Part shown: positions 6,931-61,718 of the stretch, piece after piece
Position numbering within the stretch: position 1 is the stretch's first letter
Layout: each line of letters begins with the position of its first letter
Assembly: GCA_030998225.1 (NCBI GenBank)
Contig: JAPYXD010000684.1
Span: forward strand, 1,614,501-1,678,500
Direction: 5' to 3'
Length of the DNA stretch: 64,000 nucleotides
Origin: Diplolepis rosae
Lineage: Eukaryota; Arthropoda; Insecta; Hymenoptera; Diplolepididae
Notes under the pieces: generated by a model
The model's input: the letters and a program-made list of their open reading frames with translations, nothing else
Databases searched by the model: none
Told to the model about the DNA's origin: nothing
Translations under genes and position numbers: made by a program

Positions 6931-7022
6931 CTAGATTTACTTCTAGATTGCAGCGCCCCAAGCAGCCGACTCGGGAACTACACGGTTTGGCCACAAAATC
7001 GTGACACCCACGGCCACGGCCA
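6931..7022. repeat. Subterminal inverted repeat, right arm of P-like element 1
   Basis: Inverted partner of 1548-1640. The GCAGCGCCCC block resembles the CAGCGCCCCTAGCGGCC block near the right ends of the P-like MITE copies at about 10516 and 20360, suggesting related element families. Confidence 0.6.
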
Positions 7023-7171
7023 ATGCTATAGCCCTAGAGTGTCCAGACCTGTGTATACGACCGTGATAAAAACAGAAAGTGTTAAACGTCGTAAACAGAG
7101 GTTAGAAAAGCGGATATTGCAAAAGGAAGCGCAAGAATCTTTGAAATTCTGAGGATACGATTCACGAGAAA

Positions 7172-43993: not shown

Positions 43994-44987
43994 TGTTACG
44001 TCACAAGTACGTAAATACTTACTTTGATCGAAGATTCCTCGTTTTAAGTTAGGATCGAATGATCCTCTCTTAGGGATGAGGATAAGTCAATGAAAAGTAC
44101 ACAATGATTAGTAAAGTAATACAAATTGAATTTATTTAAATTAACACTGATATAAACAAGGTTAAAATTTTACAATGATTCAAACAATGGCACAGGGAAT
44201 AGGTAAAGAATAGAGAGAATTTTCGGTACCTTTGTTGAGTTGTGAATAGTCCCTTTTTTATGAATGATCCTCACAGGTGTGAGGGAGAGAGAAAGATTCT
44301 TCCACTGGTGCGACGAAGACAGCAATAGGTATCCCACTGGTGTGAGGAAGACAGAAACAAATATCCCACTGGTGTGAGGAGGACAAGAATAGTTATCTCA
44401 CTCTACACTGACTCTAAGATCCTTTCAAAGATTGAAAGTACAATCAGAGAATTTACGACACGTTTCTTCGGAAAACTGAACTAAACACGTATCTCACGCT
44501 GTGAATCCTTTTAAGATTTTAGAAATTTCCCGCACTTAATTTTGCTCACAAGACTAGTTTTCCCTTGGCGGCGTGTCCTTTTTATATTATATTTTTTGGT
44601 GACGTCACGCGTTGCGCAGTCTCCCGCTGCGTGTGACGTAGTTATACCTCTCTTTTCAATAGGTGGTTTTCTCTCTCTTTTAGTAATTTCCCCAGATTTC
44701 TCTCTAGACCTAGCCTATGCCTATAGTACATTCAGAGATGAGGGGGGAGATTGCTCAACCTGTGGAAAAAGAGATTGAGTAAAAATTGGGCTGATAAACG
44801 CGCCATCAGGCGAGTGGAACTGTGAGTTACTTTGTGAATTCAGATTTTCAGACCTTGCGCGTCGGTAAATGATGAAAATGAGAGAAATTAGAAACGAGTT
44901 ACCACCGGAGTTGCTATTGAAAGAATTATCACGCCAGATCACGAGTACCAGAGATGAGTACATTCTAATGCGTCGCGGGACGTGACA
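43994..44987 (-). repeat. Errantivirus-like 3' LTR (994 bp)
   Basis: TG...CA boundaries, matching 60957-61718 except for an extra 232 bp near 44730-44965. It contains four imperfect tandem units around CCCACTGGTGTGAGGA (44265-44400), a palindromic TGACGTCA (44600-44607) and a minus-strand TATAAAAAGG (44577-44586). Confidence 0.9.
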
Positions 44988-44997
44988 CCTCCCCCCT
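44988..44997 (-). promoter_or_regulatory. Polypurine tract
   Basis: On the minus strand AGGGGGGAGG directly precedes the 3' LTR, the position and composition expected for the plus-strand DNA primer. Confidence 0.75.
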
Positions 44998-45402
44998 AGT
45001 TCGAGCGCGGGGGTGAAGCATCCGCGATCGAATCTTCGGAAGAAGAATACATTCGTTAATGTTTTTGAAGATACATTGAATTTCTATTTCTGACGTAATA
45101 ACCAACATTCATTTCGGGGTCTCTTTTACAATTTGTATTTTTTGCATTTGACTATTTGATTCCAATATCGATTTTTTTTTTTGATGTCATAAAAATTTAT
45201 ATTATCTAAATATTATAATTTTTTTTGTTATAAATAATTACATAGTTTTTTTTGAAATAGTATGAACTTAACATAAGGTTACATATGATTTTTTCTTATA
45301 TAACTAAATACATCAATAATTTTTATTTCATATTCGTAAATTATAAATATCATGTAATATAATAATATATAAAACTGTAACGTAATTTCATAATGTAGAT
45401 TT
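44998..45402 (-). other. Errantivirus-like 3' untranslated region
   Basis: About 400 bp, GC-rich next to the polypurine tract, then strongly AT-rich; no open frame. Confidence 0.5.
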
Positions 45403-45852
45403 TTAAGAATTATTTTTATATTTTCTATTACTTAAAGGATTGCGGCAGTTATGAGCTAAATGCCCTCTTTGAAAACACCTTTCACAAGAGTTGGTCCATT
45501 TTTGTAAGGTTTCTTTACTGATTTCATCAGTTATTTTGAAAATTCTCGTTTCTGGGATTAAGCTTTTTTCTTTCATTTCTTCTAAAAATACATATCTTGT
45601 GGAAAGCATTTCCAAGAGTTTAGATGCTGCATTTTGCTTTGCAGACTTTTTTTGAGGGGCTGGTTCCCCAATACAAGAGAAAGTTATTTTATTTTTAAAG
45701 ATTTCGCAAGTTGCTTGGAATGGTGGCAGTTCTTGGTGTTTTCCAAGCGATTTTACAATATATGAAGGTTCGGAGAAATCATACTCAATGCTTATCTCGT
45801 TTAAAACTTGTACAGCAGTGCCTTTCGATAGGTCTCTTGTCTGCAAGGCCAT
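45403..45852 (-). CDS. dsRNA-binding-like domain plus CCHC zinc knuckle protein
   Basis: 149 residues. Residues 12-84 fit a double-stranded RNA-binding domain: an N-terminal helix, a three-strand region, then the diagnostic second helix APQKKSAKQNAASKLLEML. Residues 123-136 form a CX2CX4HX4C knuckle (C123, C126, H131, C136; CERCFQRGHLAHNC). The start is supported by a strong splice acceptor, TAATTCTTTTGCAG, 10 nt upstream of ATG. It is the most 3' gene of the cassette and a paralogue of the genes at 49372 and 49994. Such proteins could bind viral or transposon dsRNA and shield it from Dicer; this is inference. The domain call is the best of the three. Confidence 0.8.
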   Translation of the reverse strand: MALQTRDLSKGTAVQVLNEISIEYDFSEPSYIVKSLGKHQELPPFQATCEIFKNKITFSCIGEPAPQKKSAKQNAASKLLEMLSTRYVFLEEMKEKSLIPETRIFKITDEISKETLQKWTNSCERCFQRGHLAHNCRNPLSNRKYKNNS

Positions 45853-46215
45853 TGTTTTTGATCTGCAAAAGAATTACCTGTTTGAGTTGATGATTGAATT
45901 TATTGAAATTCTAAAGTTAGTTAGTTTTTTTTTTGTAATAATTTTGTGTTTGTTGATATATTCACTTTCCGCGTTTCCTATCTCAAAGAGATATTTCATG
46001 CAGAGAAAACAGTGGTCCGTTTTTTAGAATATTTTAATTTATTAAGGTTTGTCGTTACATTATAGCGGTTAAGGAAGAAGTAGTGGTGTATATGAAATAT
46101 GATTTTAAACAACGAATAAAAATTAAAAGGGAAAATTTTTTAACAAAAGTTACTAATAGATATTGTTTATATTTAGAAAAAAGAATAATAAAAAATATGT
46201 TTTGATTTATTATTT

Positions 46216-46518
46216 TTATTCGTCGTTGTTATAAATAATAGTCGATGCTTCGGAATCGACGTCGTTATACAGTGCTTCTTGTTGGTATAAATGAATTACA
46301 CGTTCGGCACAAGTTACACATAAATCTGCTCTTTGCCGCATGTAAAAAATTTGTGTATTGCAAATGGAGCAGTCGAGGCTAGATAGTTTTAATGTACAAT
46401 ATAAGTCTTTAGTAACTATGTGGTCTATTCGGACGGGTAATGTTACTTCGGTTTCGAAAAAGCTGAGTTCTGCCATCCAACAATCCTCGCAAACATGTTT
46501 TTTTTCGAGAACATTCAT
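46216..46518 (-). CDS. Cysteine-rich zinc-binding-like protein (intact paralogue)
   Basis: 100 residues of unknown family. Cysteine pairs CEDC near the N-terminus, then C-x8-C-x2-C (LDCSICNT) and ADLCVTC, suggest two zinc sites. The C-terminus is acidic. The spacing and the R-x-R-A-D-x-C-x2-C pattern are shared with the frames at 46787-47195, so the two are tandem duplicates. No signal peptide or membrane segment. It may be a RING/zinc-ribbon-like adaptor, but I do not recognise it. Confidence 0.6.
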   Translation of the reverse strand: MNVLEKKHVCEDCWMAELSFFETEVTLPVRIDHIVTKDLYCTLKLSSLDCSICNTQIFYMRQRADLCVTCAERVIHLYQQEALYNDVDSEASTIIYNNDE

Positions 46519-46786
46519 GTAAAAATTATCGACCAGTGTTGTGAATCAGTATTCTGAACTTAATTGATTTTCAAATTAGGGATTAATATCCTGCTCGCTT
46601 GCTCGAACTTATTCTTATTCGATTGTTTCGATTTCTTGGGGCAGCATTTTTCTGTTGAGGAAATTTACAATATTTAAGGAATTTGAAATATTTGTAAAAT
46701 TTACAATTTTTTAGTATTAAGGATTTTATTAAATTTAACAAAATTTTTCATGCGTGATTACATGCGTGGAAGGTAGATATGTATAA
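46519..46786 (-). other. Spacer between cysteine-rich genes
   Basis: AT-rich, no frame recognised. Confidence 0.4.
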
Positions 46787-47195
46787 TCATGCAGGGGTAT
46801 TTTCTACTAGAACTTCGTTTCCTTGACTAATTTCGAATTTATAATTTAAATATTGTTCGATACATTCTCTACAATCAGCTGCTCTTTTTCGCGGAGTAAT
46901 TAATAGTTCTTGACAACCGTAACAATTCATATATATGCATTCCAATTTACAAATGGAATTGCCATGATGTAAAAAATTCACAGTTATTTTGAGTTTCCTG
47001 ATCTAATTTCTCGAAACAGAATTGGCAATATCTTTTTGTGGTTTGGTGATTATAATATAAAAACAATGTTGAGGGTTCTAATTCGAAGCAATAACTCTGT
47101 AATAAGTGCGCGTATGCTATCGGATAGTCTTGCGGACATACACCGTCTACTGGTCCAAGATGGTTAACAATAGGTTCACTTGGAGTTGGTATCAT
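46787..47195 (-). pseudogene. Cysteine-rich zinc-binding-like gene, split by a frameshift
   Basis: The first part (47195-46947) begins MIPTPSEPIVNHLG and ends with a CQFC pair. A shifted frame (down to 46787) continues with C-x8-C-x2-C (MNCYGCQE) and AADCREC. The second frame has no ATG and opens just after a TAG, whereas the two parts together parallel the single frame at 46216-46518. I therefore read this as one gene broken by a one-base shift near 46990. TTGTAG three bases before the ATG is a plausible acceptor. Programmed shifting or two separate genes cannot be excluded. Confidence 0.5.
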
Positions 47196-47530
47196 TTTCT
47201 ACAAATTGTAGAATAGATTTATTTTATTAAGGTCTGATAAGGAGAATGAAAAATAACTTTTTGAATATATTTTCTAATCATGCAAGGTAAAAGATTTTGC
47301 TAAAGGTATTTTACTTTCCGTCAGAAAAACAACTTTTATATTACAGTTTGTTTTTCCTTTAGTAAGAAACATTAAAGACGTGGGTACAAAAACTGTCCTT
47401 CTGACGGTATAGGACGTTCATGCACGTGGTTTTGAGAAAGGTAAGGACGGAATGTACCTGTATCTGAAAATTTTGTGAATTGACTTTAAGTCTATTAAAG
47501 AAAAGGGTGAAAGATGGAATAAAGGAAAGG
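47196..47530 (-). other. Spacer downstream of the F-like envelope gene
   Basis: 335 bp without a frame; contains pyrimidine-rich stretches ending in AG on the minus strand that could serve as splice acceptors. Confidence 0.4.
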
Positions 47531-49312
47531 TCAAAAGTTAAACGTCAAGTCGGTCAGTAAAGGTTTTGTCACTGAGCTTAAAGGAGTTTTTTGTATAAGT
47601 TCTATACGTGTTGGCGTTTTGTTTATTTTTTTAGATATTTTTTGAATTTTCAATAGTAATAATCCTAAAATTGTAATCATAAGTAAAGTGATAAAGATTA
47701 GTGCTAATGTTAATTTATGTGCACTAGAAATAAAAATTGATGGAATGATTTTTTGAATGTTTGCATATTTTGTAAGGATAAAGACATGGTTTTCGAAGAT
47801 TGATAATGGCATGTCTTCTTTTTGCTGAAGAAGAAGTAATACCTTTTTTAGTAAGTGAGGCTCTTGAATGGAAATATTATATAAAAATGGTGAAATTATA
47901 GCAAGGGAAGTAGTTGATTTGCTGACTGGAATTGAATTATCCATTATATTCAAATGGTTTTGAAGATGGTAATATGGAGTTGATGAATCTAGATTGCAAC
48001 CTGATTTTGTTTGCAAAATTCCTATTCCTTGGAGTGTGATTATGGTCTTAGAGTTTTTTCGACATGATAAGAAAATTTGTCGGGGGAAAATTGTTGAGTA
48101 TAGCCATCCATGATGAAATTGCAATGGTGTTAGAAAGGGATATTCACTAAAACTGATGAATATTTTACACTTGTATGGTTGAGAATTTAGAAACATTGAT
48201 GTTTCACAAATAGGATTGTTATCGATGTTAGATATAGATCTTGGTGGGTGACAAAATGGTTGGAATCCATTTTGATAACATGCATTGAGGAAATTTTCAT
48301 TTGTTATAAAGTATGATTGCTTATTTGAAGAAATAGCGAGATAAGAATTTTGAGGTTTTATGTAAATAGAGGAAATTACGTCAGTATTAAAATCGAGATG
48401 TATTGGAATTGGATGTGGTTTAAATAATTGAAATTCTTCAGCAGATGGGATTGGTATAGTCATAATAAAAATCAAGTACTTATCGAATAAGAAGTATTGT
48501 ATTTTAGAAAATGGAAGGACCATAGAAAAAAGGGATGTTGAAGGGTGTGGGTCTTCTTTGTTGGATTTGAAGTCTAAGAAGGTATCAGGAAGTAGCATAG
48601 GGTGCCATAAATTAGTTGCGGCATGAGTAATAGCTTCTGTAAGTTGGTCAAGGAGTAAAAGAAAAGATTGAGAAATTTCATGCAGGTCTTTAAGCCAATT
48701 TGCTGCTAATATTCGATATAGGTGAATATTTGGATCTTTTTGAGAATTATGCCATTTTTTGTAGGTCATAATGTTCTCAAGTTTTGAAGAAAGATTTGTA
48801 ACTTTTTGGAAAAATGGATTAGGAAGTAGAAATAAATTTTCTTTGGGCCAGTAAAGGGAGGTTTCATTTCTCATTCTTAATTCTAAAAGTACTTTTTGTA
48901 TCTGTTGCAAGAATGGATCATTAGTGTTAGAAATATTCGTGATATTACGAGCTTGTCTAGATATAAATGATATTTCTTCAAGAAAACAGTTGATGCGTTG
49001 TTCTATAAAATCAAGTTGTGTCTGATGATCGTATAAATTACAATTATTGGCAATATTTGAGAGTATGTAATATTCATATAATTTATGTGAGAAATCTATT
49101 ATTTTGTATTTAAGTACGTCTGGCTGAAAGATATCGATATAAGATATAAAATGATATTTTTCAGAAAAAAGACGAACTTTTGAAATTGGTTCAAAATAAA
49201 TCCCTGAAGAATGAGAAAATTGTGAGTCTATGAAGTATTTTTCTGCTTTGGAGAAAAGGAGTGGAATTAAAATTAAATACACTCTGGATGCTAGTTGATT
49301 AAGGAAATTCAT
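47531..49312 (-). CDS. env: F-like/gypsy-type envelope glycoprotein
   Basis: 593 residues, type I membrane protein layout: a hydrophobic N-terminal signal (residues about 5-22), a long ectodomain with N-glycosylation sites (for example NITNISN), a transmembrane helix at about 534-554 and a 39-residue basic tail. The ectodomain pattern is helical in the first 300 residues. Then come spaced cysteines and the GWLYSTIFPRQIFLSC ... GIGILQTKSGC stretch, which recalls the Env of gypsy-type errantiviruses, related to baculovirus F proteins. I found no clear furin site. The ATG lies 18 nt after an excellent acceptor (TACTTTTCTTTTTCAG), consistent with a spliced env message. Family call by eye. Confidence 0.7.
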   Translation of the reverse strand: MNFLNQLASRVYLILIPLLFSKAEKYFIDSQFSHSSGIYFEPISKVRLFSEKYHFISYIDIFQPDVLKYKIIDFSHKLYEYYILSNIANNCNLYDHQTQLDFIEQRINCFLEEISFISRQARNITNISNTNDPFLQQIQKVLLELRMRNETSLYWPKENLFLLPNPFFQKVTNLSSKLENIMTYKKWHNSQKDPNIHLYRILAANWLKDLHEISQSFLLLLDQLTEAITHAATNLWHPMLLPDTFLDFKSNKEDPHPSTSLFSMVLPFSKIQYFLFDKYLIFIMTIPIPSAEEFQLFKPHPIPIHLDFNTDVISSIYIKPQNSYLAISSNKQSYFITNENFLNACYQNGFQPFCHPPRSISNIDNNPICETSMFLNSQPYKCKIFISFSEYPFLTPLQFHHGWLYSTIFPRQIFLSCRKNSKTIITLQGIGILQTKSGCNLDSSTPYYHLQNHLNIMDNSIPVSKSTTSLAIISPFLYNISIQEPHLLKKVLLLLQQKEDMPLSIFENHVFILTKYANIQKIIPSIFISSAHKLTLALIFITLLMITILGLLLLKIQKISKKINKTPTRIELIQKTPLSSVTKPLLTDLTFNF

Positions 49313-49371
49313 TAGGCTTCTCGGAAGGCTGAAAAAGAAAAGTAGGATTAATATTGGATAAAATAGGATGT

Positions 49372-49956
49372 TTACATATGGTTGGATTTAGGTCTAGAAG
49401 TTTTTTGGAGAAAAGGGGAAAAAAGTCTACTAAATGTTGAGGAGTTTCTTGGTGGAACTGGAGGGGGAAATTGGGTTGATTTGTCTACCTTAAAAATATT
49501 TCGTCTACGGCACTCTTTTGTAGCATGCATTTGAGTGTTACAAAATCTACAGGAATTTTCCCAAGGTATTAATTTTGGTCTTGGATCGGTTTGAATACTT
49601 TGATTTTTGGTTTTTTGCCTTTTTTTATCATCATTATTATAAAATTTTTCGTCGCAGAGATCATATGATCTTATTAGTAGTAATAATAATTTTAAAGCTG
49701 CTCTATTTTCTGCTAATTCACTAGTAGGGCCGGCTTGTATAACGAAATGTTCATTTATATTAATTTGTGCGAGAAAAAATGAGTTTGTTTTCGAATTCCT
49801 ATCAGGATAGACTGTACATTGCGGTAACGGCAGTCCATATTTTATCGTGAAGTTTCTTAAAATTTCTACATGATTTAAAAATCCCATGGAGTCTGTTCTG
49901 TATTTCTTTTTTGGGTAACTTGGTACGTGTGTAGGCTCGTCGTAGTAATGCTCCAT
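49372..49956 (-). CDS. dsRNA-binding-like domain plus CX2CX4HX4C finger protein
   Basis: 194 residues. Residues 28-96 resemble a dsRNA-binding domain, ending in the helix SELAENRAALKLLLLL. Residues 136-149 form a zinc knuckle (C136, C139, H144, C149). A proline/arginine-rich tail follows with PPPVPPR, a possible SH3-binding stretch. The architecture matches the gene at 45403. GATTCAG 15 nt before ATG is a possible acceptor. The basic lysines usual at the start of the second dsRBD helix are poorly kept, so RNA binding is less certain here. Confidence 0.65.
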   Translation of the reverse strand: MEHYYDEPTHVPSYPKKKYRTDSMGFLNHVEILRNFTIKYGLPLPQCTVYPDRNSKTNSFFLAQININEHFVIQAGPTSELAENRAALKLLLLLIRSYDLCDEKFYNNDDKKRQKTKNQSIQTDPRPKLIPWENSCRFCNTQMHATKECRRRNIFKVDKSTQFPPPVPPRNSSTFSRLFSPFLQKTSRPKSNHM

Positions 49957-49993
49957 TGCAGTTGATTTCCTGAATCGGTATGGAATGTTTATA

Positions 49994-50731
49994 TTAGAAT
50001 TTATTGTACTGGTTGGGAGGTCTATATCCGCATTTAAAACATTTTTTAAAGCTTTTCGTAGAGAAAGATGATGCAGTATGATTATTATTTGTTTTCATTT
50101 TATATGAATTTGTATTTTTATCACGATTGTTATTTGAAGTAATAGGTTTTGTTATTTGGCTACTCGTTGAAGGTTTTGGATCGTTTATAGATGATTCTTG
50201 AATTGTTACATGCAAATGTTCTAGTGAGTTTATCAAACGTAGTTCACATTTCTCGTCTTTATGCGAAAGAGAATTAATAACTTTTATGGCAGCAAAATCC
50301 TTAGCTGTTTTTATTGAGTTTGCTATTCCTATTTGTTTAATGTTATTAATGAAACAAATTGCTATGTATGTTGAGTCTTTTGATGAGGTTTTTATTCGTA
50401 ATACTGTATATTTTGGATACTCAAATTTATTTTCAGTGCAAATTTCGTTTAATTTTTTGCAATTTTTACTAATAGAGTTTGGTTGGACGTTTTGATTTGT
50501 TTCCTTTGATTCATTAATTAAGGCATTATATAAATTTTGTGCTACCTTTTGCTTTACATTTTCTTTATCTTTGCCACTATTCATTATTATATAATTTTTA
50601 TATTGTAAATTAACGTGAAATAGACATTCATTATTATTGGTTTGTTCAATGAGTATCTCATAAATCAGGAGTGGATCTCCTCTTTGTTGAATAATTTTGT
50701 TTAGTAAGGTTGTAAAAGGAACATGCGACAT
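49994..50731 (-). CDS. Tandem dsRNA-binding-like domains protein with degenerate knuckle
   Basis: 245 residues. Two dsRBD-like folds: residues about 5-73 (ending KENVKQKVAQNLYNALI) and about 90-156 (ending KTAKDFAAIKVINSL). A serine/asparagine/threonine-rich linker follows, then a C-terminal CFKC pair at 231-234 where the other family members have a full knuckle; here the histidine and last cysteine are missing. The ATG sits one base after CATCTTCAG, a likely splice acceptor. It is only 10 nt downstream of the glycoprotein stop, implying tightly packed genes each with its own acceptor. Confidence 0.65.
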   Translation of the reverse strand: MSHVPFTTLLNKIIQQRGDPLLIYEILIEQTNNNECLFHVNLQYKNYIIMNSGKDKENVKQKVAQNLYNALINESKETNQNVQPNSISKNCKKLNEICTENKFEYPKYTVLRIKTSSKDSTYIAICFINNIKQIGIANSIKTAKDFAAIKVINSLSHKDEKCELRLINSLEHLHVTIQESSINDPKPSTSSQITKPITSNNNRDKNTNSYKMKTNNNHTASSFSTKSFKKCFKCGYRPPNQYNKF

Positions 50732-50741
50732 TCTGAAGATG

Positions 50742-52772
50742 TTAGATTTGGATAGAGTAGTGGGTTCTATTAAGTTCTTCTTTTAATTCAGAGTGAGGAT
50801 AAAGAGTTGTGTTTGTATTATTGTGATCTTTACCTGAAGTAGTGTTTGCGTAATACGATGGACTTTTAGGTGCCTCTTTCGAGCTTTGTGGTGCTGAAGC
50901 TGTTAGCAGTTCTTGATGACTCTCAGCAGGAGGTCCAGAAGGTCGATGGGTACCTAAGTGTAATAAGAGGTTAGTGACCGAATCCCAGAAGGCGCCTAGT
51001 AGATGGAGAGACCATCCAAATAATCTGTGTAGCGCATATCCATGAATAATGGTATCAGCTATCAATTTAATCCCTCTAATTATTATTATTAATCCAATTA
51101 GGCCTGCACTAGTAGTTCCAAAACTTGTAAAAATTGTCCAAAATCTACCCCATGCGGATTCAGCAATTTTATCAATTACATCTTCATTAAATAAATTCGT
51201 TAATGATATTCCTTGATTAATAGTTGGATGTCCTGTTATTTCTCTAGCTAAAGAATTTAGAATCATTGGTTTTTCTGCTGGAAACATAATATGATCTCGC
51301 AGTTTATCAAGATCAGATTGAGAATAAATGCCACTTGTTGCTAAGGATGAAGGATTTGTGTATTTCCAGGTTGCTTTTGTGAGAGGTTTAACTATAGTTG
51401 GTGCTATGGATTCGACAGGATTTGGAAGTAATTTGTACCAGGTTTCTCCAAAAAGGTACATTGGTGGAAGGAAAGAATTGCAATTTGTTTGGATACCTGA
51501 TTTTGTTAATATATGAGTTCGTGGAGAAAGGAAAAAGGATTGATTTCCTCTAAATATTGGTAGTTGTAGATAACATTCTTCAGTTTTGCGATATTTTACT
51601 TCAACCGGTATACATTTTACGATATGTACTACTTCTCCTGCAATTACTGACATATATCCTGGGCCTTTCATTAAATGATATGCAAATTCGTCTGGTGATT
51701 GGGTTGCTAAGGTTAATGTATTTCTAAAAACTTGCTGTTCAAGAATGCATCGTTGAGTAAGAACATCGTGATAAAGTCTATTTACTTCAGTGCGTATGTG
51801 TCGTTCTACATATATAAATTTAGAATTGACGTATGTGAAAATGTCCATATATTGAACTTCTAAATGTTTATTTTCTAAAAATGAATTCCCGGGTCTGGTT
51901 TCAAAAATTAATAATTTTGGATGTTCGGTTTGTATTAAAACGTAACTGCAAACTGGTTTTCTTGTTTTTTCAGCTAGTACGAAAGTTATATCCTCAGTCG
52001 TTAAAGAATAAAAGGTTTCAGAATTGTCTGTCGTGTTGTCATAGGTCTTATTTGCTGGTCCTTCATAAATAATTTCATATTTGTTAAAATTACATACGTC
52101 ATTAGGTAATGTATCCCAGAATGTTTGTCCATATTCTACGTCAGTACAGAATGTGTCTGAAAGTGTGCATATTATTCCAGATCCTAATTGAATTTTATTT
52201 GAATTTAAATGAATAGTCGCGTAATGTTCTTGTAAAGTTATTTTGAATATTGCTTGGACTACGACATTATTCCATGTTCCGTATGGGTCAGAAAATTGTG
52301 TACCAGTACAGTCTCCATTAGGTGTTACAGAACCTGCTAAAGTAACGCTATGAAATGAAGTTTCATTTACTTTTAACTTTGATATCTGAAGAGAAGGGGT
52401 TACTAAAAATGTTCCTATTGTGTGCATTTGATTACATTGATCTCGTGTAACATCATGTATATATTCACTGTGGCCATTTGCTACTATGGAACTGTGAGAA
52501 TGCATACCACAATGAGAGATGGCGCGTCGAATTTCTATTTTGCATTGTATTACTTTTGTATTTGAAAATCCAGTTAATTGTAAAAGTTGTATATAAGTTC
52601 TTTCAACATGTACTTGAGATCGAGGTAGATCACATTCTCCTACCTCTAGTAAAGATAATGTCGTAATATTTGATTGATTTGAACCGCAATCGAATCCTAT
52701 GATGGCGTAGACTGTTGTTATATAGTTGAAGTTGCAAGTGAGCAGTGCCAAAAGGAAGCCTCGTAATCCCAT
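50742..52772 (-). CDS. Large glycoprotein resembling those of negative-strand arthropod viruses
   Basis: The open frame extends to 53042, but I choose the ATG at 52772 (676 residues). It starts a signal peptide (MGLRGFLLALLTCNF...) and lies two bases after an acceptor, TCCTTTTTCCAG; the upstream frame is basic and overlaps the CARD-like gene. The ectodomain begins IIGFDCGSNQSNITTLSLL with VGEC soon after, carries about 20 cysteines and several N-glycosylation sites. A transmembrane segment (TTSAGLIGLIIIIRG) is followed by a roughly 100-residue tail. The N-terminal DCG/NIT/SLL/GEC pattern resembles glycoproteins of chuvirus-like viruses as I know them; a database search is needed. It is unrelated to the F-like envelope at 47531. 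Confidence 0.65.
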   Translation of the reverse strand: MGLRGFLLALLTCNFNYITTVYAIIGFDCGSNQSNITTLSLLEVGECDLPRSQVHVERTYIQLLQLTGFSNTKVIQCKIEIRRAISHCGMHSHSSIVANGHSEYIHDVTRDQCNQMHTIGTFLVTPSLQISKLKVNETSFHSVTLAGSVTPNGDCTGTQFSDPYGTWNNVVVQAIFKITLQEHYATIHLNSNKIQLGSGIICTLSDTFCTDVEYGQTFWDTLPNDVCNFNKYEIIYEGPANKTYDNTTDNSETFYSLTTEDITFVLAEKTRKPVCSYVLIQTEHPKLLIFETRPGNSFLENKHLEVQYMDIFTYVNSKFIYVERHIRTEVNRLYHDVLTQRCILEQQVFRNTLTLATQSPDEFAYHLMKGPGYMSVIAGEVVHIVKCIPVEVKYRKTEECYLQLPIFRGNQSFFLSPRTHILTKSGIQTNCNSFLPPMYLFGETWYKLLPNPVESIAPTIVKPLTKATWKYTNPSSLATSGIYSQSDLDKLRDHIMFPAEKPMILNSLAREITGHPTINQGISLTNLFNEDVIDKIAESAWGRFWTIFTSFGTTSAGLIGLIIIIRGIKLIADTIIHGYALHRLFGWSLHLLGAFWDSVTNLLLHLGTHRPSGPPAESHQELLTASAPQSSKEAPKSPSYYANTTSGKDHNNTNTTLYPHSELKEELNRTHYSIQI

Positions 52773-52891
52773 CTCTGGAAAAAGGAGGTTCCAATTAGCA
52801 GCTTGCTTTGTAATATAAGAATAGGAAAATGTTTTATCATTAAATATGTATATTTTTGAAGTTATTGATTTACTTTTTGTATTTTGCGTTC

Positions 52892-53173: not shown

Positions 53174-53422
53174 TATATCTGGAATAATGTGTTATGTCTG
53201 AAAATTCATTTTTATTTTGTTTTATATATATTTTTTATTTTATATATAAAACATATATTTTCATAACAAAAAAAAAAATTTATTTTTTTTATATTTTTAC
53301 TATTTATCGACAAAATAAAATTTCTATATCTTATTTAAGTTGTATATGTATATATATAAATATATATATATATTTTTTTTTTATAATTAAGGTACAGATA
53401 TTTTGTTTCTATTTTTATTTAT
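53174..53422 (-). other. AT-rich spacer between integrase and CARD-like gene
   Basis: Low-complexity TA/T runs including a (TA)n stretch at about 53342-53370; no gene. Confidence 0.5.
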
Positions 53423-54556
53423 TTACTTTTGTACTTGCACATGTGAGCGTTTTAGTCTATTAATGTGGACAACAGTAGGTTTGCCTTTATAGCTTATTTT
53501 GACATTCCCTTTTCCTAACACTTCCAATATTTCATAAGGCCCTGTATAATGGCTGTCAAGTTTTTTAATTTTTCCTCCTTTTAATAAAAACACGTAATCT
53601 CCAATTTTTACTTCTAAAGGACTTATTTTTTTGTCATAATATAATTTCGATTTTTCTTTTGCTGAAATAAGATTTTCTTTTGCTTGTGTTCGCATTTCAT
53701 GTAGTTGTGTTACGAAATTAATTAAATAATCGTCATATGTTTGTAATTTTTCTTGTTGTGATAAAGGTTCACTGGAAGGTTCACGAGCTAGTTTACCAAA
53801 AACCAATTCATAGGGTGTGCATTTTGTGCCTTCATGTACACTAGTATTATATGAGAACATTGCTAGTTCAAGCCAATCATCCCATTCTGAATTTTTTGCA
53901 ACAAATTGTTTGAGATATTCTCCTAAAACATGATGTGAACGTTCTAATGACCCGTTTGATTGAGGGTGAAATGCTGTGGTACGAAATTGTTTAATTCTAA
54001 AACGTTTTGCCAATCTTTTTAATAAATTACTTAAAAAATCTCTGCCTTGGTCAGTAAGTACTCCTTTCGGTGATCCAAATATGCAAATAAATTTTTTCAC
54101 GAAAGCATCTGCTATCGTACTAGCTTGGTGATTAGGAAGAGGTATTGCTAAAGAATATTTGGTAAAATTGTCTTGTATCGTCAGAATATATAAGTTACCA
54201 GATTTTGTTTCAGGTAGTGGACCAACAATGTCCATTGATATTTTTTCAAAAGCAGTAGTGGGTGTGTCAGTGATTACCATAGGGTTTTTTGTTTTGACTC
54301 TGATTAATTTTTTCAGTTGACATTGTAAACAGCCTTGAATATATTTTTGAATGTCTACTTTCATATTTTCCCAAAAAAATTTTTGGCGAATTCGGCTATA
54401 AGTTTTTGTAACGCCTTTATGGCCTCCTAATGCTGAGGAATGAGCTTCTTCAATTAAATGAGTTCGTTGTTCCTTTGTTGGATATTGCGTTATTCCATTG
54501 CAAACTATAATTTTTGTAGTTGAATTTGAAAAAATTGAATCGAAAATTGATTTCAC
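53423..54556 (-). CDS. pol: Errantivirus-type integrase (C-terminal part of pol)
   Basis: 377 residues from the first ATG, but the frame is open upstream to about 54767 and that part continues the RNase H-integrase linker, so this is the end of Pol in another frame. Zinc-binding H39, H46, C76, C79. The catalytic triad is D109 (MDIVGPLP), D169 (TDQGRDF) and E205 (SLERSHH), with the canonical D,D35E spacing. The C-terminal part has the GPY module (HYTGPYEILE). All key residues are present. The pol frame ends at 54702, a one-base shift away, next to a run of five T. Confidence 0.85.
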   Translation of the reverse strand: MKSIFDSIFSNSTTKIIVCNGITQYPTKEQRTHLIEEAHSSALGGHKGVTKTYSRIRQKFFWENMKVDIQKYIQGCLQCQLKKLIRVKTKNPMVITDTPTTAFEKISMDIVGPLPETKSGNLYILTIQDNFTKYSLAIPLPNHQASTIADAFVKKFICIFGSPKGVLTDQGRDFLSNLLKRLAKRFRIKQFRTTAFHPQSNGSLERSHHVLGEYLKQFVAKNSEWDDWLELAMFSYNTSVHEGTKCTPYELVFGKLAREPSSEPLSQQEKLQTYDDYLINFVTQLHEMRTQAKENLISAKEKSKLYYDKKISPLEVKIGDYVFLLKGGKIKKLDSHYTGPYEILEVLGKGNVKISYKGKPTVVHINRLKRSHVQVQK

Positions 54557-54701
54557 TTCTTCCCAAGGTATGTGATTAATTCTGGAAGTTTTTGATATAC
54601 TAATAGATCGTAATTTAAATTTTTGAGATAATTCATGTAATGAATGAATTGATAATTTTATATTATTTAAAGTTTCAGATAAATTATCTTTAGTTTCTTC
54701 T

Positions 54702-57700
54702 TCAATTGGAAGTGCAAAAATGGTAGTAGTTTCCTTTTTTAATCTCTTTTGCTATCCCCTTTTGTAAATTTTTAAATTTTGGTAAAGTTTCACGTTTTTC
54801 TAAAATTTTTGATCCGTTGTCGCGAGGAGTTCCATTTGTTGTAACAAAATATGCATAATTATCTTTTCGCATAGTTAATTGATCGCGACATTCAACTAAA
54901 TTTTTCTTTGTTATAATTTTTTCTGTTTGAGAGTTTATAGGAGGAGGTTCTGGGGGTGGACGATTATAATTATCATGATCTTTATCGATTTTTTCACAAT
55001 TTATTTGAGATCTTCGGTTTAATCTCAAATTTTCTTCAAAATAAGGCTCTTCAAATTCTTCTTCCAATTTTTCTTCTTGGTTTTCTTCAAACTTCTCATC
55101 AAAATTTCCTTCGTGTGAGGTTTCAATGTCGTTGATTTCATCTTCTGAGGTTAAAAAATAATTCTCACTTTCTTCACTTTCAAATTCATTAATATTTTTT
55201 GGCTTCTTGGCATTCTTCTTCTTTTTATTTTTGGCTTGAGTTTGTTTCAAATAATCTAAATAATCAGGATCAGAGTCGGAATCTGATTCTACTTTTGTTC
55301 GGCTTCCCTTTTGCACATTTATTTCTGGTAATTCGTTTTCAAACATTTGTTTTCTTGGCCTACCTCTCTTTCTTTTTGTTTGAGAGGGAATATTTTTCAA
55401 ATTTGTAAGTAGATTTTTTCTTGGCCTACCTCGTGGTTTTTTCATAAGAGGTTTAGAAGAAAAATTTTCGTCTAATTTTTCTTGAGTTTCGTTTCGATTC
55501 AAATTTTTTGCTTTTTCTTGCTCTATTCTCTTTTGAGCTCTCGTAGTAATAGTTTTCCATGATAAATTTTCGTATTTTTTGGAAAACACTGGACTTAATA
55601 AAAATATTGTCATAAAAATAAGTCTTGAAGCCATATTTTTGAATAAATTTGTGTATTTTAAAATATTCTTACCAATCTCACTAAATAATTCTTCACTAAG
55701 AAATTCCTGGAAATATTCTGGGATTTTTGAGTCGATATTTAATATTTGGGCTTCCGAAATTTCGCTAAAACGATCTACGTCGTCTGGTACGATTTCTGGA
55801 TTCAAGTTTCTTCGTTTTGAAGGTCTTACCTCATTTTTAGAGTTTTCTTGTTTTTTTCTTGTAAAAGTTTTCTTTGAAAACATTTTTTCTTGGGAAGTCA
55901 TAAAAGTATCATTGGCGTCAACTTGTAAATATCTTGATTTCTCTTTGTTATCATCAATAGGGTTTCTTGAGAGAGCGTCTGCATTTACATTCATTTTTCC
56001 TGCTTTGTAAATTACATCAAAATCATATTCTGCGAGTTTCAGTCTCCAACGTGAAACTCGTGAACAAGGGTCTTTAGAATTTTGAAACCAAACTAGAGGT
56101 TTGTGATCAGTCACTAAAGTAAATTTTCTCCCATACAAATAATGACGAAAATGAGTTACACAAAATATTATAGCAAGAGCTTCTTTCTCATATGTATCAT
56201 ATTTTTTCTCAGTATCACTTAGACTACGTGAAGCATATGCTATTGGCTTATCTTTACCTATTTTACCTTGTGATAAAATACCTCCTATTGCAAATCCTGA
56301 GGCATCTGTTGTGAGTATAAAAGGTTGAGAAAAATCAGGTCGTTGTAAAAGTGGTTCTTCACATAATTTTGCTTTTAAAATTTCGAAAGCTGCTTGTTGT
56401 TTTTCTGTCCAATTAAAAGGTGTATCTTTTTTCAGAAGTTGATTTAAAGGCCTTGCAATTTTTGAAAATCCATCAATAAATCGTCTATAATATCCTGCTA
56501 AGCCTAAAAATTGTTTAACATTTTTCTGTGTTTTTGGGACTGGAAAGTTTTTTACAGCTATTATCTTTTTTGGATCTGGACGTACTCCATTTTTATCAAT
56601 TATATGACCTAAATATCCTACTTCAGGTCGTAAAAATTCGCATTTGTCTGGTTGTAAGTGAAGATTTGCTTTTCTAAGTCTTTCTGCTAAATTGTTAAAT
56701 TTAATTTCGTGCTCTTCTAGAGTATTTGCATATATAACTATGTCATCGAGATATACAAAAAGTTCCGTTCCTATTAATCCAGTTAATGTTAAATCCACTA
56801 ATCTTTGAAATGTGGCAGGTGCAGTTTTTAAACCGAAAGGCATTCTATCGAATTCGTAATGACCGTGAGGTGTAGAAAACGCGGTTTTATGCGAGTCTTT
56901 TGGATCCATTTTTATATGGTGAAAACCGGTAGCTAAATCAAACACTGAAAAATATTTTGCTGATCCTAGAAAATCAAGTATATTGTTCATATTAGTTAGA
57001 GGATACGAATCGCCAATTGTTTTTTCATTTAATTTACGAAAATCAAGAACCATTCTCCATTTTATTTTTCCTTGAGAATCAGGTTTTTTAGGAACTATCC
57101 ACACTGGAGTGTTATATGGTGATTGTGAGGGCTTGATTATTTTATTTTTTAATAATTCATCGACTTGTCTTGTAATTTCTTCCTTGTGAACTGGGGGAAA
57201 TCTATATTGTCTTGAAAAAATTGGAGCGTCATCTACAGTTGGAATTGAATGTTGTAATACATTAGTAGCTTCAAGTGGTTCTCCTGGGATTTGAAATCTG
57301 TCTGCATTATTTTTAATTAATTTTCCTACATGTTCATATTCATCTTGATTTAAATGGTCTAATCGAAGAAGTTTTTTAATACATTCTACTCTGTCTTCGT
57401 CTGTTACATTATAAAATTTGCATGAGTTAATTAGAGAATTGTCAGTTTTTAAAAAGTTATTTAATATTTTACTTGATAAATCTTCGTTATTTGTTTGTTT
57501 GAAATTAATTAAATTTTCAATTTGTTTATAGCATTCTTGTTCTTCAAAGTCTTCTAAATTAACTAATGGGACGGATAATGTAATTGGGATTTCATTTGTG
57601 TTTGCAAATTTTAAATAAGCTTTTCCTCTGTGATTTTTTACAACTGCGTCACCTACGTAGACGCCATCTTGGATATGTAATCGAGGTACATACCCTTCAC

Positions 57701-58187
57701 TCTTTTCTGTATTTTTTATATTAACATAAAATGTTGTAACTGTTCGAGCTGGAATAGTAAATGTATTGGTAGATTTAAAAGGGTAACAGTGGTTCTCAAT
57801 TTCTAAGCATTTTGAAGTATAGTTTATATTCACACTATTATCTTGAAAAAATTCTGATCCTAATACTCCATCTTCTTCTACTGGGACTTCATTCGGAATA
57901 ATGTTAAATATCGTTGGATAACCAAAAATGTTTATTTTTGCCTGTCCTAACGTGTAAAGTGGTAAATCATTAATTCCTGTAAGTTTCAATACGTTATGCC
58001 TATTTATTGGTACTTCAGGGTTGAGAACCTTTTGTTTAATTAAATTTCGAGCTGCACCAGTATCAATCATCATGTGTGTTGGATTTTTTAAACCTTCCGT
58101 TGATATTATAATTGATGGAATTGAAGTGGACTTTGAAATATTTATTGTTGTTGTTGTATGATCGTTAGAAGTGGATGCCAGTGGTTC
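54702..58187 (-). CDS. pol: Errantivirus-type Pol: protease, reverse transcriptase, RNase H, AT-hook linker
   Basis: The first ATG is at 58073 (1123 residues), but the frame opens at 58187 just after a TGA and the extra 38 codons complete the protease. Numbering from the ATG: protease active site DTGA at 4-7; RT about 285-530 with VLDFRKLN, FDLATGFHHI and catalytic YLDD at 441-444; RNase H about 588-703 (TTDASG, YEKEALA, NADALSR). An unusually long linker then holds a short hydrophobic stretch (816-831), two AT-hooks (PRGRPRK near 880 and RGRPRK near 903) and a strongly acidic region, before typical pre-integrase sequence. The frame ends one base-shift before integrase. Confidence 0.85.
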   Translation of the reverse strand, partial: EPLASTSNDHTTTTINISKSTSIPSIIISTEGLKNPTHMMIDTGAARNLIKQKVLNPEVPINRHNVLKLTGINDLPLYTLGQAKINIFGYPTIFNIIPNEVPVEEDGVLGSEFFQDNSVNINYTSKCLEIENHCYPFKSTNTFTIPARTVTTFYVNIKNTEKSEGYVPRLHIQDGVYVGDAVVKNHRGKAYLKFANTNEIPITLSVPLVNLEDFEEQECYKQIENLINFKQTNNEDLSSKILNNFLKTDNSLINSCKFYNVTDEDRVECIKKLLRLDHLNQDEYEHVGKLIKNNADRFQIPGEPLEATNVLQHSIPTVDDAPIFSRQYRFPPVHKEEITRQVDELLKNKIIKPSQSPYNTPVWIVPKKPDSQGKIKWRMVLDFRKLNEKTIGDSYPLTNMNNILDFLGSAKYFSVFDLATGFHHIKMDPKDSHKTAFSTPHGHYEFDRMPFGLKTAPATFQRLVDLTLTGLIGTELFVYLDDIVIYANTLEEHEIKFNNLAERLRKANLHLQPDKCEFLRPEVGYLGHIIDKNGVRPDPKKIIAVKNFPVPKTQKNVKQFLGLAGYYRRFIDGFSKIARPLNQLLKKDTPFNWTEKQQAAFEILKAKLCEEPLLQRPDFSQPFILTTDASGFAIGGILSQGKIGKDKPIAYASRSLSDTEKKYDTYEKEALAIIFCVTHFRHYLYGRKFTLVTDHKPLVWFQNSKDPCSRVSRWRLKLAEYDFDVIYKAGKMNVNADALSRNPIDDNKEKSRYLQVDANDTFMTSQEKMFSKKTFTRKKQENSKNEVRPSKRRNLNPEIVPDDVDRFSEISEAQILNIDSKIPEYFQEFLSEELFSEIGKNILKYTNLFKNMASRLIFMTIFLLSPVFSKKYENLSWKTITTRAQKRIEQEKAKNLNRNETQEKLDENFSSKPLMKKPRGRPRKNLLTNLKNIPSQTKRKRGRPRKQMFENELPEINVQKGSRTKVESDSDSDPDYLDYLKQTQAKNKKKKNAKKPKNINEFESEESENYFLTSEDEINDIETSHEGNFDEKFEENQEEKLEEEFEEPYFEENLRLNRRSQINCEKIDKDHDNYNRPPPEPPPINSQTEKIITKKNLVECRDQLTMRKDNYAYFVTTNGTPRDNGSKILEKRETLPKFKNLQKGIAKEIKKGNYYHFCTSN

Positions 58188-58192
58188 TCAAT

Positions 58193-60055
58193 TTATGCTT
58201 TCCTCAGTGCACCCGTGCTGGGGAGAGCTTTGGAGTTTTCCTGATGAGCTGTTTGTGATTGCCTATTTGGTCGTATCTTGCAGTCTCGTACTAAATGACC
58301 GGGTTTTTTACAATAATTGCAAACTACTTCGGTATAATTTGAATTTTGTTGATTATTATTATTTTGTAAAAACCTATATTCATATGGTTTTTTTCGATTT
58401 TGAGACTGTCCTAAGTTAAAGTTTTGATACTGTCCTGGATTCCATTGTCTATTATTATTATTAACATTATTGTTATTATTGTAAAAATTTCTAGGAAAAT
58501 TATTATTATTGTTGTATCTTTGTTGTAAAACATTATTATTATTGTTTTTATAATTATTATTTCTATTTTGCAAATTATTATTGTTATTGTTATTAAAATT
58601 ATAATTTTTATTTCTTAAAAAATTGTTATTCGGAAAATTATTGTAATTGTTTCTTGCAAAATTATTATTATTATTACTTCTTTGACCATTGAAATTACTA
58701 TATCCTTGTTGGTTAGGACGCAAAAAATTTTTTTGTTTATTATTAAAAACTGCATCTTGAGCTTTACTTAAATGAAAACATTTTTCAGTTGTGTGACCTG
58801 GTTTTTTACAAATTAAACAAATAGTTTTGTTTTCAAGTGCTACGTTAAATCGTGTTGTTTTATTATTTTTATTACTAGATGATTCGTCACTTTTTGAATA
58901 GTCCATATTTTTATTTCTTCGTAGTGCGGAATTTGCAGCTAATCTTCGTTCTATATCAATACTGTCGCTAATAACTTCTTTAAAAGTATCCTTTTCTTCA
59001 ACACGAATTTCCAACTCAGGACGCAAACCGCGTATAAAACATTGAATTACGTCTTTTTCAAGGTTTACTTTAAAATTATTATCTACCTGACCATTATTAT
59101 TGAGCCTGTGAGCATCTTCGATTTTGTCGGCAATTTCTTTTATCCTAGCAGCATAGGAAAGTACATTTTCTCTTTCCCACATAAATGTATTACCTAATTC
59201 TCCCTGTAACTGGTACACGCTTTTCGCAGGGGCATATACTCTTTTCAATTTTTCTATCAATTCTTCTATTGTTGTATAAGTAGAACCAAAAATGCATTTT
59301 CTGGCTTCTCCAGTTAATTTACCTCTTAATAGCCTTGCGAGGTTTTCTTGAGCTGCAGGTGTCGGTAGCATTGCCTTTGCCTCCATGCAACCCTCAATAA
59401 AATGTGACAATGGGAGGTTACTTCCGTCAAACAATGGGACCACCTCTAGCGCGTCGCGTAAGGATACCTGCTGGCTGTTGGGTATGACCACGGCCATCTC
59501 TTCGTTATTTACTCTTACGGGATTATCCTGATTTATGGCTTCTGTGTCGCTTTTGTCGTCGTCGCTATCGTTGTTACTAATTATAGATTCGCGTGCCAAT
59601 GAGGTTTCCAATCTTTCTTTCAACGTTTTATTATCTACTGTTATTACTGTTGAGCTTAGCAAATTGAATTCGTCAAAATAAGATAATTCATTCGTTAGAG
59701 TTTGATCTTGATTACTGGATCCTGTTACAATGCTTAAATCTGGACAGAAACTTGAATGAAACCCGCTAGTTTTTTCTGAATTTTCACGTGATATATTTTG
59801 ATTATTAATTAGAGTCTTGTCTAAACTTGAATCATCTAACTTAAGAGTGTTATCTAATTCTTGTTCTGTAGGGATTGGATCAGGGATATTTTGGCATTTA
59901 TTATCAGTTGAATATTCTCTATTTCTAATTGGTTTTATTTTTAAATTACCCTTTTGATTCAAATCTACTATTTTTGAAAGCTGACTATCGTGTTTAGCTT
60001 GACTACGTGTTATAACTTTCGGGGTAGATTCTAAAGGGATATTTGGTTTTGACAT
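58193..60055 (-). CDS. gag: Errantivirus-type Gag with two zinc knuckles and an asparagine-rich insert
   Basis: 620 residues. A charged N-terminal region is followed by a retrotransposon gag/capsid core at about 195-385 (VVPLFDGSNLPLSHF, LLRGKLTGEARKCI, FIRGLRPELE). CCHC knuckles lie at 413-426 (CLICKKPGHTTEKC) and 579-592 (CNYCKKPGHLVRDC). Between them residues about 452-573 are dominated by asparagine runs encoded by AAT/AAC repeats. The stop (TAA) lies two bases before the TGA that bounds the pol frame, so gag and pol do not overlap. Start ATG in the context TCAATGTC. Confidence 0.9.
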   Translation of the reverse strand: MSKPNIPLESTPKVITRSQAKHDSQLSKIVDLNQKGNLKIKPIRNREYSTDNKCQNIPDPIPTEQELDNTLKLDDSSLDKTLINNQNISRENSEKTSGFHSSFCPDLSIVTGSSNQDQTLTNELSYFDEFNLLSSTVITVDNKTLKERLETSLARESIISNNDSDDDKSDTEAINQDNPVRVNNEEMAVVIPNSQQVSLRDALEVVPLFDGSNLPLSHFIEGCMEAKAMLPTPAAQENLARLLRGKLTGEARKCIFGSTYTTIEELIEKLKRVYAPAKSVYQLQGELGNTFMWERENVLSYAARIKEIADKIEDAHRLNNNGQVDNNFKVNLEKDVIQCFIRGLRPELEIRVEEKDTFKEVISDSIDIERRLAANSALRRNKNMDYSKSDESSSNKNNKTTRFNVALENKTICLICKKPGHTTEKCFHLSKAQDAVFNNKQKNFLRPNQQGYSNFNGQRSNNNNNFARNNYNNFPNNNFLRNKNYNFNNNNNNNLQNRNNNYKNNNNNVLQQRYNNNNNFPRNFYNNNNNVNNNNRQWNPGQYQNFNLGQSQNRKKPYEYRFLQNNNNQQNSNYTEVVCNYCKKPGHLVRDCKIRPNRQSQTAHQENSKALPSTGALRKA

Positions 60056-60924
60056 TGAGTCATTATAAATTTACAATATTTTGTATTGAGCGTTGATTGT
60101 TTATTGTTATTTTAAATTTGTTTATAACAATAAAAAAAACTATATATAAAATTTGTTTTTTAAGAAAAATAAAATGAGATTAGTAAAATTTATTTTTAAT
60201 TTGTTTATTTATTTTTAATAACAATATAATTTGAAATGAAATTTGTATTTCGTCATTTGAAAATAAAATAATGATATAAAAATATAATTATTTCAAATAT
60301 TCAAATTAAATAAATAATCGCTCAATTGTTTGTAAATTTATAATTTTTAATAATAAATTTCTTAAAATAATAAAATATTTTTCTTTACCAACTGCATGTG
60401 CCCTTTATGTAAAATTAAAATAATTTATTTTATTTATTTATAAATTGTTTATAACAATTAAACAAATTTGTTTATAATAATGATCATTCGAAATATTCAT
60501 AAATTATTTTTATTATATTGGAAAAGTTAACTTAAGTGCAAATCTTTGGACAAAAATTTTTTTTTTGCAAATAAAAATATTCTGTTTTTTATGTTTGTTT
60601 TAACTTAAATAAAAACTTGGTTAACAAATTAGAATATCTTTTTAAATAAGATAAGTTACTTAATCACTTAGGTTAGCCTCAAGGTCAGATCCCTGCGTGA
60701 TTTTTCAAACTTATTTTATTTTTAAACAATTTATATAAATTATAAAATTTCAAAGAAATGATCTGATTATTAAATCATTAAGGTTAGCCTCAAGGTCAAA
60801 TCCCTTTGTGATCTAACAAATCTATTTTATTGAAATTTTAAGTTTTAAAGTTGAAATAATATTTCATAATCATTTATTTATTTATTATTAAGAACCAATG
60901 TGTTCAATTTCAATTGACTTGTGT
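60056..60924 (-). promoter_or_regulatory. Errantivirus-like 5' leader with a duplicated block
   Basis: Very AT-rich untranslated leader. A block of about 41 bp is present twice, at 60661-60701 and 60771-60812, sharing GGTTAGCCTCAAGGTCA. In other elements this region holds packaging signals, splice donors or insulators; a GTAAAG at about 60396 (minus strand) is a weak donor candidate. Confidence 0.55.
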
Positions 60925-60942
60925 TTCCCGGCCGATGCACCA
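60925..60942 (-). promoter_or_regulatory. Primer-binding site, tRNA-Gly
   Basis: The plus strand reads TTCCCGGCCGATGCACCA, the 3' end of tRNA-Gly(GCC) plus CCA, so the minus-strand element carries an 18-base primer site. It is unusually separated from the LTR by 14 bases. Confidence 0.85.
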
Positions 60943-60956
60943 GAAAAAAGGAAGTA

Positions 60957-61718
60957 TGTTACGTCACAAGTACGTAAATACTTACTTTGATCGAAGATTC
61001 CTCGTTTTAAGTTAGGATCGAATGATCCTCTCTTAGGGATGAGGATAAGTCAATGAAAAGTACACAATGATTAGTAAAGTAATACAAATTGAATTTATTT
61101 AAATTAACACTGATATAAACAAGGTTAAAATTTTACAATGATTCAAACAATGGCACAGGGAATAGGTAAAGAATAGAGAGAATTTTCGGTACATTTGTTG
61201 ATTTGTGAATAGTCCCTTTTTTATGAATGATCCTCACAGGTGTGAGGGAGAGAGAAAGATTCTTCCACTGGTGCGACGAAGACAGCAATAGGTATCCCAC
61301 TGGTGTGAGGAAGACAGAAACAAATATCCCACTGGTGTGAGGAGGACAAGAATAGTTATCTCACTCTACACTGACTCTAAGATCCTTTCAAAGATTGAAA
61401 GTACAATCAGAGAATTTACGACACGTTTCTTCGGAAAACTGAACTAAACACGTATCTCACGCTGTGAATCCTTTTAAGATTTTAGAAATTTCCCGCACTT
61501 AATTTTGCTCACAAGACTAGTTTTCCCTTGGCGGCGTGTCCTTTTTATATTATATTTTTTGGTGACGTCACGCGTTGCGCAGTCTCCCGCTGCGTGTGAC
61601 GTAGTTATACCTCTCTTTTCAATAGGTGGTTTTCTCTCTCTTTTAGTAATTTCCCCAGATTTCTCTCTAGACCTAGCCTATGCCTATAGTACATTCTAAT
61701 GCGTCGCGGGACGTGACA
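60957..61718 (-). repeat. Errantivirus-like 5' LTR (762 bp)
   Basis: Matches the other LTR but lacks 232 bp: the junction is at AGTACATTC (61689-61697), a word present at both ends of the extra segment in the 994-bp LTR. The tandem CACTGGTGTGAGG units, TGACGTCA (61563-61570) and minus-strand TATAAAAAGG (61540-61549) are kept, so the core promoter is intact. Confidence 0.9.
61540..61570 (-). promoter_or_regulatory. Predicted LTR core promoter (CRE plus TATA box)
   Basis: On the minus strand a palindromic CRE, TGACGTCA, precedes a TATAAAAAGG box by about 13 bp. Half-CRE words (TACGTCAC) occur nearby and at the LTR edge. This is the 5' LTR, so the site could drive the genomic RNA; strength and factors are inferred. 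Confidence 0.55.

Follow-up and report, generated by a model that had tools for sequence, protein, structure and literature searches.

The typical errantivirus is about 7-9 kb long and has a single env besides gag and pol, and an F-like env is a hallmark of the insect gypsy retroviruses. The element described here is a 17.7-kb Ty3/Gypsy-type provirus of Diplolepis rosae, which lies on the minus strand at positions 43994-61718 of a 64,000-nucleotide stretch of contig JAPYXD010000684.1 (assembly GCA_030998225.1, positions 1,614,501 to 1,678,500; hereafter the window, to which all coordinates refer). It shares with errantiviruses and other env-bearing insect gypsy elements a Ty3-type pol, an F-like env after the integrase and a 4-bp target duplication, all familiar traits of that family. 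Beyond their gene set it has another envelope-type gene, unrelated to the first, together with six more genes, and its length is about twice theirs. On balance, it is probably an endogenous retrovirus of complex type that belongs to Ty3/Gypsy (Metaviridae).

A survey by Chary and Hayashi (2025) reportedly underlies the description of type III fusion glycoproteins in mosquito gypsy elements. Those elements share with the D. rosae provirus both the Gypsy affiliation and a class III glycoprotein, but the available part of the report mentions no accessory block (PMC13172572). Anakin, a mosquito BEL/Pao element, also carries a chuvirus glycoprotein inside a long terminal repeat (LTR) element; it differs in belonging to BEL/Pao and not to Gypsy, and the available text describes no CARD, double-stranded RNA-binding domain (dsRBD) or second envelope for it (PMC7642597). 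A class III glycoprotein as the env of an LTR element is already known. In the open-access literature searched we found no LTR element described as carrying both a class III and an F-like env, and none of this kind with a CARD or dsRBD gene; the principal survey of gypsy elements with an env lies outside that scope, and an earlier description is possible.

The limits of the element can be read directly. The 5' LTR (60957-61718, minus strand) is 762 bp long with ends TGTCACGT...ACGTAACA, and the 3' LTR (43994-44987, minus strand) is 994 bp long, including an extra stretch of 232 bp. In their main shared block the two agree at 738 of 740 positions, and a 31-bp end block is identical throughout; their terminal dinucleotides are TG...CA. 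The 4-bp target-site duplication CTTG stands at 61719-61722 on the 5' side and at 43990-43993 on the 3' side. A polypurine tract, AGGGGGGAGG (44988-44997, minus strand), adjoins the 3' LTR, and a primer-binding-like site, TGGTGCATCGGCCGGGAA (60925-60942, minus strand), lies 14 nt inward of the 5' LTR. The latter putatively resembles what we take to be the complement of the 3' end of an insect tRNA-Gly; a tRNA gene search of the whole window found none, and the tRNA-Gly reading stays our assumption. Because the divergence of the LTRs is small, a recent insertion is implied, less than 0.5 million years ago at an assumed substitution rate of 3e-9 changes per site and year.

The gag gene (58193-60055, minus strand) encodes 620 amino acids with two CCHC knuckles. 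A second frame (54702-58073, minus strand) holds a protease motif, reverse transcriptase (RT; RVT_1 E 2.9e-33) and RNase H (E 3.9e-39); the protease was called by eye from a DTGA motif, and no protease is among the Pfam matches. The integrase (53423-54556, minus strand) comprises the H2C2 domain, the core and a GPYE-type C-terminus. Its open frame differs from the RT frame in the D. rosae copy, a difference that may reflect either damage or a frameshift device. The LTRs, the CTTG duplication, gag, RT-RNase H and the integrase reported in an initial annotation of this DNA were all seen.

Classification follows several traits. Among the best 60 of 205 PDB matches, the nearest solved RT is that of Ty3 (E 2.7e-97), followed by 8r0s 'Enzymatic polyprotein' (1.9e-64) and then by 'Pr125Pol' (2.4e-38). 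Besides this RT nearest to Ty3, the Metaviridae traits present are RT-RNase H upstream of the integrase, LTRs, a short target duplication, a primer-like site and a polypurine tract. The errantivirus trait of an F-like env downstream of the integrase is also present (Baculo_F 4.5e-22), but with 17.7 kb, two envelope-type genes and further genes the element departs from the errantivirus plan. A charged tail of about 390-440 amino acids after the RNase H and upstream of the integrase (54702-56000) contains two GRPRK motifs, which are presumably AT-hook-like; this tail could be a targeting module. Troyka was considered as a classification and excluded, being described in the available text with CG...CG ends and 3-bp duplications (PMC12440569), against TG...CA and 4 bp here.

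From the integrase stop to the polypurine tract and 3' LTR, 8.4 kb hold eight genes (one of them split), all on the strand of the element. Their order is CARD, chuvirus-type glycoprotein, dsRBD-a, dsRBD-b, F-like envelope, two zinc-ribbon-like genes and dsRBD-c. The block had been put at about 9.4 kb, a length reached only when the 3' LTR is included; the seven or more long frames claimed for it are present, as seven frames that run from ATG to stop over 93-766 codons. When the block was simulated 300 times with a second-order Markov model, the length of the longest frame had a mean of 94 codons, a 95th percentile of 135 and a maximum of 178. Frames of 766, 593, 245 and 194 codons are beyond chance, and that of 149 codons is above the 95th percentile. 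Those of 93 and 100 codons, which encode the CARD and a zinc ribbon, are not beyond chance by length in these simulations; they are backed instead because their relatives recur as open frames. A comparison of five proteins with NCBIfam gave only two weak matches, far below cut-off. The D. rosae copy is partly damaged: the integrase and RT differ in frame, one probable zinc-ribbon gene is split and the other has four stops.

Evidence on the history of the block is provided by relatives of its genes. A search of 5.8 billion proteins with the CARD, dsRBD-a and a zinc ribbon as queries found 55, 36 and 32 relatives, respectively, and all 123 were compared with eleven gene pieces of the element. 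At least two pieces are matched by 15 of the 123. In one of these, P0121, the double match only reflects that the two zinc genes resemble each other. The remaining 14 bridge neighbouring gene regions, always in the order of the window and mostly at about 60-95% identity. Three run from integrase to CARD (P0082, P0086, P0091), three from CARD to glycoprotein (P0046, P0085, P0088), one from CARD to dsRBD-b (P0074; weak, E 2e-4) and one from glycoprotein to dsRBD-a (P0035). Four join dsRBD-a to dsRBD-b (P0026, P0032, P0033, P0036), P0012 runs from dsRBD-a through the start of dsRBD-b into F, and P0105 joins the zinc ribbon to dsRBD-c.

Six of the eight junctions between the integrase and dsRBD-c are kept in relatives; those from F to the first zinc gene and from one zinc gene to the next have no bridge among the 123. 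The remaining 108 relatives match one piece only and are uninformative on context. The bridging relatives are apparently predicted proteins of decayed copies, which may come from one species or several. Because the same order recurs in these decayed relatives, integrase-CARD bridges included, we conclude from the sequences that the 3' block moves as part of the element. Scans of viral contigs gave no relative with dsRBD-a, the glycoprotein, the integrase or the RT piece, or with the CARD, zinc or dsRBD-a alignments. The glycoprotein query gave none in bacterial or archaeal contigs, and its DNA matched no phage record in near mode.

The block contains two envelope-type proteins, as had been stated, and these belong to different, unrelated families. 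The chuvirus-type fusion glycoprotein (50742-52772, minus strand) matches PF24664 at E 2e-246 over profile positions 6-649 of 653 and has a membrane segment. Its open frame begins at 53042 and is uninterrupted for 766 codons; we infer a start at a methionine at about 52772, which precedes a hydrophobic signal-like stretch, is clear of the CARD gene and gives a protein of 676 aa. The baculovirus-F-like envelope (47531-49312, minus strand; 593 aa, Pfam E 4.5e-22) has an RQAR site at residue 119 and a membrane segment from residue 536. Its best Pfam stretch is limited to residues 268-555, and a search of the PDB gave no relative to E 1.

The CARD gene (52892-53173, minus strand) encodes a stand-alone protein of 93 aa, and its assignment is well supported by profiles and a predicted structure. 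The protein's own Pfam match (0.025) is below cut-off, and neither this single sequence nor P0080 alone has a match in the PDB. Across the family, 26 of 38 aligned members match CARD at E up to 0.1, the best at 1.3e-5, and the best profile match is Dronc (E 0.0054). The predicted structure (pLDDT 92.7) is a six-helix bundle with a broken first helix, and its top structural matches are the CARDs of Apaf-1 and caspase-9; the gene had been called CARD-like at the outset. The E values of all 55 relatives are 0.01 or below. Of these relatives, 26 have a length of exactly 93 aa, and identity goes down to about half. In a neutral-drift simulation with substitutions only, the chance of a stop-free CARD frame at 58% identity is 0.04. 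This is a weak sign of selection, short of proof, and the protein database favours open frames.

In a viral library, the four best matches of the CARD model are iridovirus and equine herpesvirus CARD proteins (E 0.44-1.5). GIV-CARD, an iridovirus CARD-only protein, is anti-apoptotic according to the available text (PMC4457926). The iridovirus CARD-only proteins, which are among those library matches, likewise consist of a free CARD of about 91-95 aa, but they come from viruses of cold-blooded vertebrates and share 11% identity, whereas the D. rosae CARD is nearest to the insect caspase Dronc. By analogy, the D. rosae protein may have an anti-apoptotic role.

Three dsRBD genes are present. On the minus strand, dsRBD-a (49994-50731) encodes 245 aa with two dsRBD stretches (8.1e-10) and a C-terminal CxxC, dsRBD-b (49372-49956) encodes 194 aa with one weak dsRBD (0.0017, below cut-off), and dsRBD-c (45403-45852) encodes 149 aa with one dsRBD (8.6e-7). 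They had been described as three dsRBD/zinc-knuckle genes; a full CCHC knuckle is found in dsRBD-b and dsRBD-c, and the third has its CxxC only. The RNA-binding helix of a dsRBD canonically carries a lysine motif. This contact helix reads KKSAK in dsRBD-c, is partly lysine-bearing in both dsRBDs of dsRBD-a and reads SELAE, without the usual lysines, in dsRBD-b; the lysines are absent also from P0032 and P0036. The best PDB match of dsRBD-c is Dicer homolog 1 (E 0.0013). R2D2 was considered as a parent of dsRBD-a and is a lead only, at E 0.025 with one sequence and with nothing to 0.1 when a profile is used.

A dsRBD-knuckle gene seems to have been duplicated, with the copies taking on different tasks. 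A precedent can be found in IIV-6 340R, a dsRBD protein of an insect virus that is reported, in the available text, as a suppressor of RNA interference (RNAi; PMC4231766). The D. rosae case differs in that the dsRBD genes number three, two of them also encode a CCHC knuckle, and they belong to a retroelement. By analogy with 340R, suppression of RNAi is probably the role of the dsRBD proteins and is favoured here; a role in handling the element's own RNA is a serious alternative.

The anatomy of the element is firm, and the functions of its 3' genes can be proposed by analogy, with good precedents. Full-length RNA would make Gag and Pol, and the products of the 3' genes would come from shorter messages. 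Entry would be the task of the chuvirus-derived glycoprotein and the F-like protein, each perhaps for different cells. The free CARD would mimic the CARD of a Dronc-type initiator caspase and cap the CARD of Dark/Apaf-1, which would keep the infected cell out of apoptosis. Double-stranded RNA would be bound by the dsRBD-a and dsRBD-c proteins and kept out of reach of Dicer-2/RISC, while dsRBD-b, being without RNA-contact lysines, would act by protein contacts. The CARD and dsRBD genes would play the part of the accessory genes of complex vertebrate retroviruses. Those viruses also have extra genes beside gag, pol and env, but they form a different family with unrelated accessory proteins, and the likeness is one of plan only. 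We have moderate confidence that the element is an endogenous insect retrovirus of the complex type that works as proposed, with genes against apoptosis and probably also against RNAi. The observation of the initial annotation is confirmed, and its interpretation, an insect analogue of complex retroviruses with host-antagonist genes, is partly supported.

Other explanations of the same provirus concern what its genes do. The dsRBD/knuckle and zinc proteins could regulate the element's own RNA (unspliced export, packaging, chaperoning), with another role for the CARD. The Gag-like CCHC knuckles of dsRBD-b and dsRBD-c fit this, as do the RNA-contact helices that lack lysines in dsRBD-b, P0032 and P0036. 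A weak sign that would suit self-managed splicing is the donor-like motif GTRAG, which occurs 0 times on the sense strand and 16 times on the antisense strand of 44988-53422. Over the whole internal region, GTRAG occurs 5 times against 10.4 expected (as low in 10 of 200 simulations), and the donor-like pattern AGGTRA is not depleted (8 against 5.5 expected). The likeness of the CARD to death-fold signalling domains has no obvious RNA role, however, and the precedent of an insect-virus dsRBD protein that suppresses RNAi (PMC4231766, in its available part) also speaks for host antagonism; self-regulation appears rather unlikely. A little easier to entertain, yet still doubtful, is a single working envelope, in which the chuvirus glycoprotein came later to replace an ancestral F-like env, or F to replace the glycoprotein, and the presence of both is a transitional state. 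BEL/Pao elements are known to have class III glycoproteins as env, which are also reported in mosquito gypsy elements (PMC7642597 and PMC13172572, available text), and the F-like protein has its short Pfam stretch and no relative in the PDB. Both frames are nevertheless long and uninterrupted (766 and 593 codons), the F-like protein retains its membrane segment and RQAR site, and in another copy P0012 has F sequence downstream of dsRBD-a.

Two further explanations would deny that the block is native to the element. A block of a larger DNA virus might have been inserted into, or trapped by, an ordinary gypsy element, and CARD, dsRBD and F genes are indeed known from large DNA viruses, as the viral-library matches of the CARD model illustrate despite their weak E values. 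But all the genes lie on the element's strand between the integrase and the polypurine tract, their order recurs in decayed relatives and the viral contig scans gave no relative, which makes such an origin very unlikely. An assembly join or a chance stacking of unrelated insertions is less probable again and can be given hardly any weight. The window does contain other transposons, but a join is contradicted by LTRs and a target duplication that match between the two ends, and by bridging relatives on other contigs. Both an assembly join and an occurrence of the cassette genes in unrelated contexts, named beforehand as ways in which the annotation might fail, are opposed by the 14 bridging relatives of 123, three of which link integrase and CARD.

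A broader version of the preferred reading, plausible though short of probable, is that of a Ty3/Gypsy lineage of complex insect retroviruses. Such a lineage would combine two structurally different classes of entry system with a CARD that imitates caspases and a small dsRBD-knuckle family, the last two disarming apoptosis and RNAi, and its env would be the source of many glycoprotein-only 'chuvirus fossils' counted in insect genomes. According to the available text of a 2023 survey, insect chuvirus fossils are mostly glycoproteins with gypsy fragments beside them, with no clear gypsy/copia capture except the mosquito Pao element Anakin and one unclassified complete Bemisia element (PMC10084718). 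A 2019 ant survey, in its available text, assigns 224 of the 227 ant Mono-Chu glycoprotein hits in its tree to ant-only clades (PMC6540820). A bounded, young gypsy provirus with a chuvirus-type glycoprotein as env makes a retroviral origin of glycoprotein fossils directly testable. If the proposed functions are true, retroviruses of the complex type, armed with host-antagonist genes, have an origin in insects separate from that in vertebrates, and apoptosis and RNAi, two main insect defences, are their targets.

The two remaining genes of the block are zinc-ribbon-like. The first, a probable one (46790-47198, minus strand), is split over two frames and has a 45% match in P0121. The second (46216-46518, minus strand) encodes 100 aa with a DZR_2 match of 0.0016, below cut-off. 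Eight of its 32 relatives have a form of 141-143 aa; in the D. rosae copy, stops break up the corresponding N-terminal part, in a region that reaches to 46647. Relative to P0092, the closest relative, the 43 upstream codons (46519-46647) have four stops and several changes, and the following 100 codons are 98% identical. This sharp boundary looks like recombination of a decayed with a young copy. Across 23 aligned members the Pfam labels are weak and inconsistent (DZR_2 11, FtrD-like 5, FYVE 4), the profile's best PDB matches reach only E 0.21 and 0.72, and the structure prediction is unusable (pLDDT 49.9).

Several minor features lie in and around the LTRs. The 232 bases at about 44734-44965 are present in the 3' LTR only, with a 9-bp AGTACATTC repeat on both sides; either a small transposon with a 9-bp duplication entered after integration, or the 5' LTR suffered a deletion between the repeats. 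Each LTR has about three tandem 32-bp repeats (44302-44402 and 61265-61365), which are possible binding sites, and the 5' leader (60656-60831) has two 65-nt direct repeats with a spacing of 111 nt. An Rfam scan of 43900-61800 gave no family at the gathering threshold. The window as a whole is transposon-rich, with 31% GC. A BEL/Pao-type element on the plus strand (30170-35340) has DUF1759, Peptidase_A17, RT and integrase zinc domains, and a P-element-like transposase, a THAP domain, a DDE_Tnp_4 transposase and an RT fragment are found at 3845-8067 and 12081-13262.

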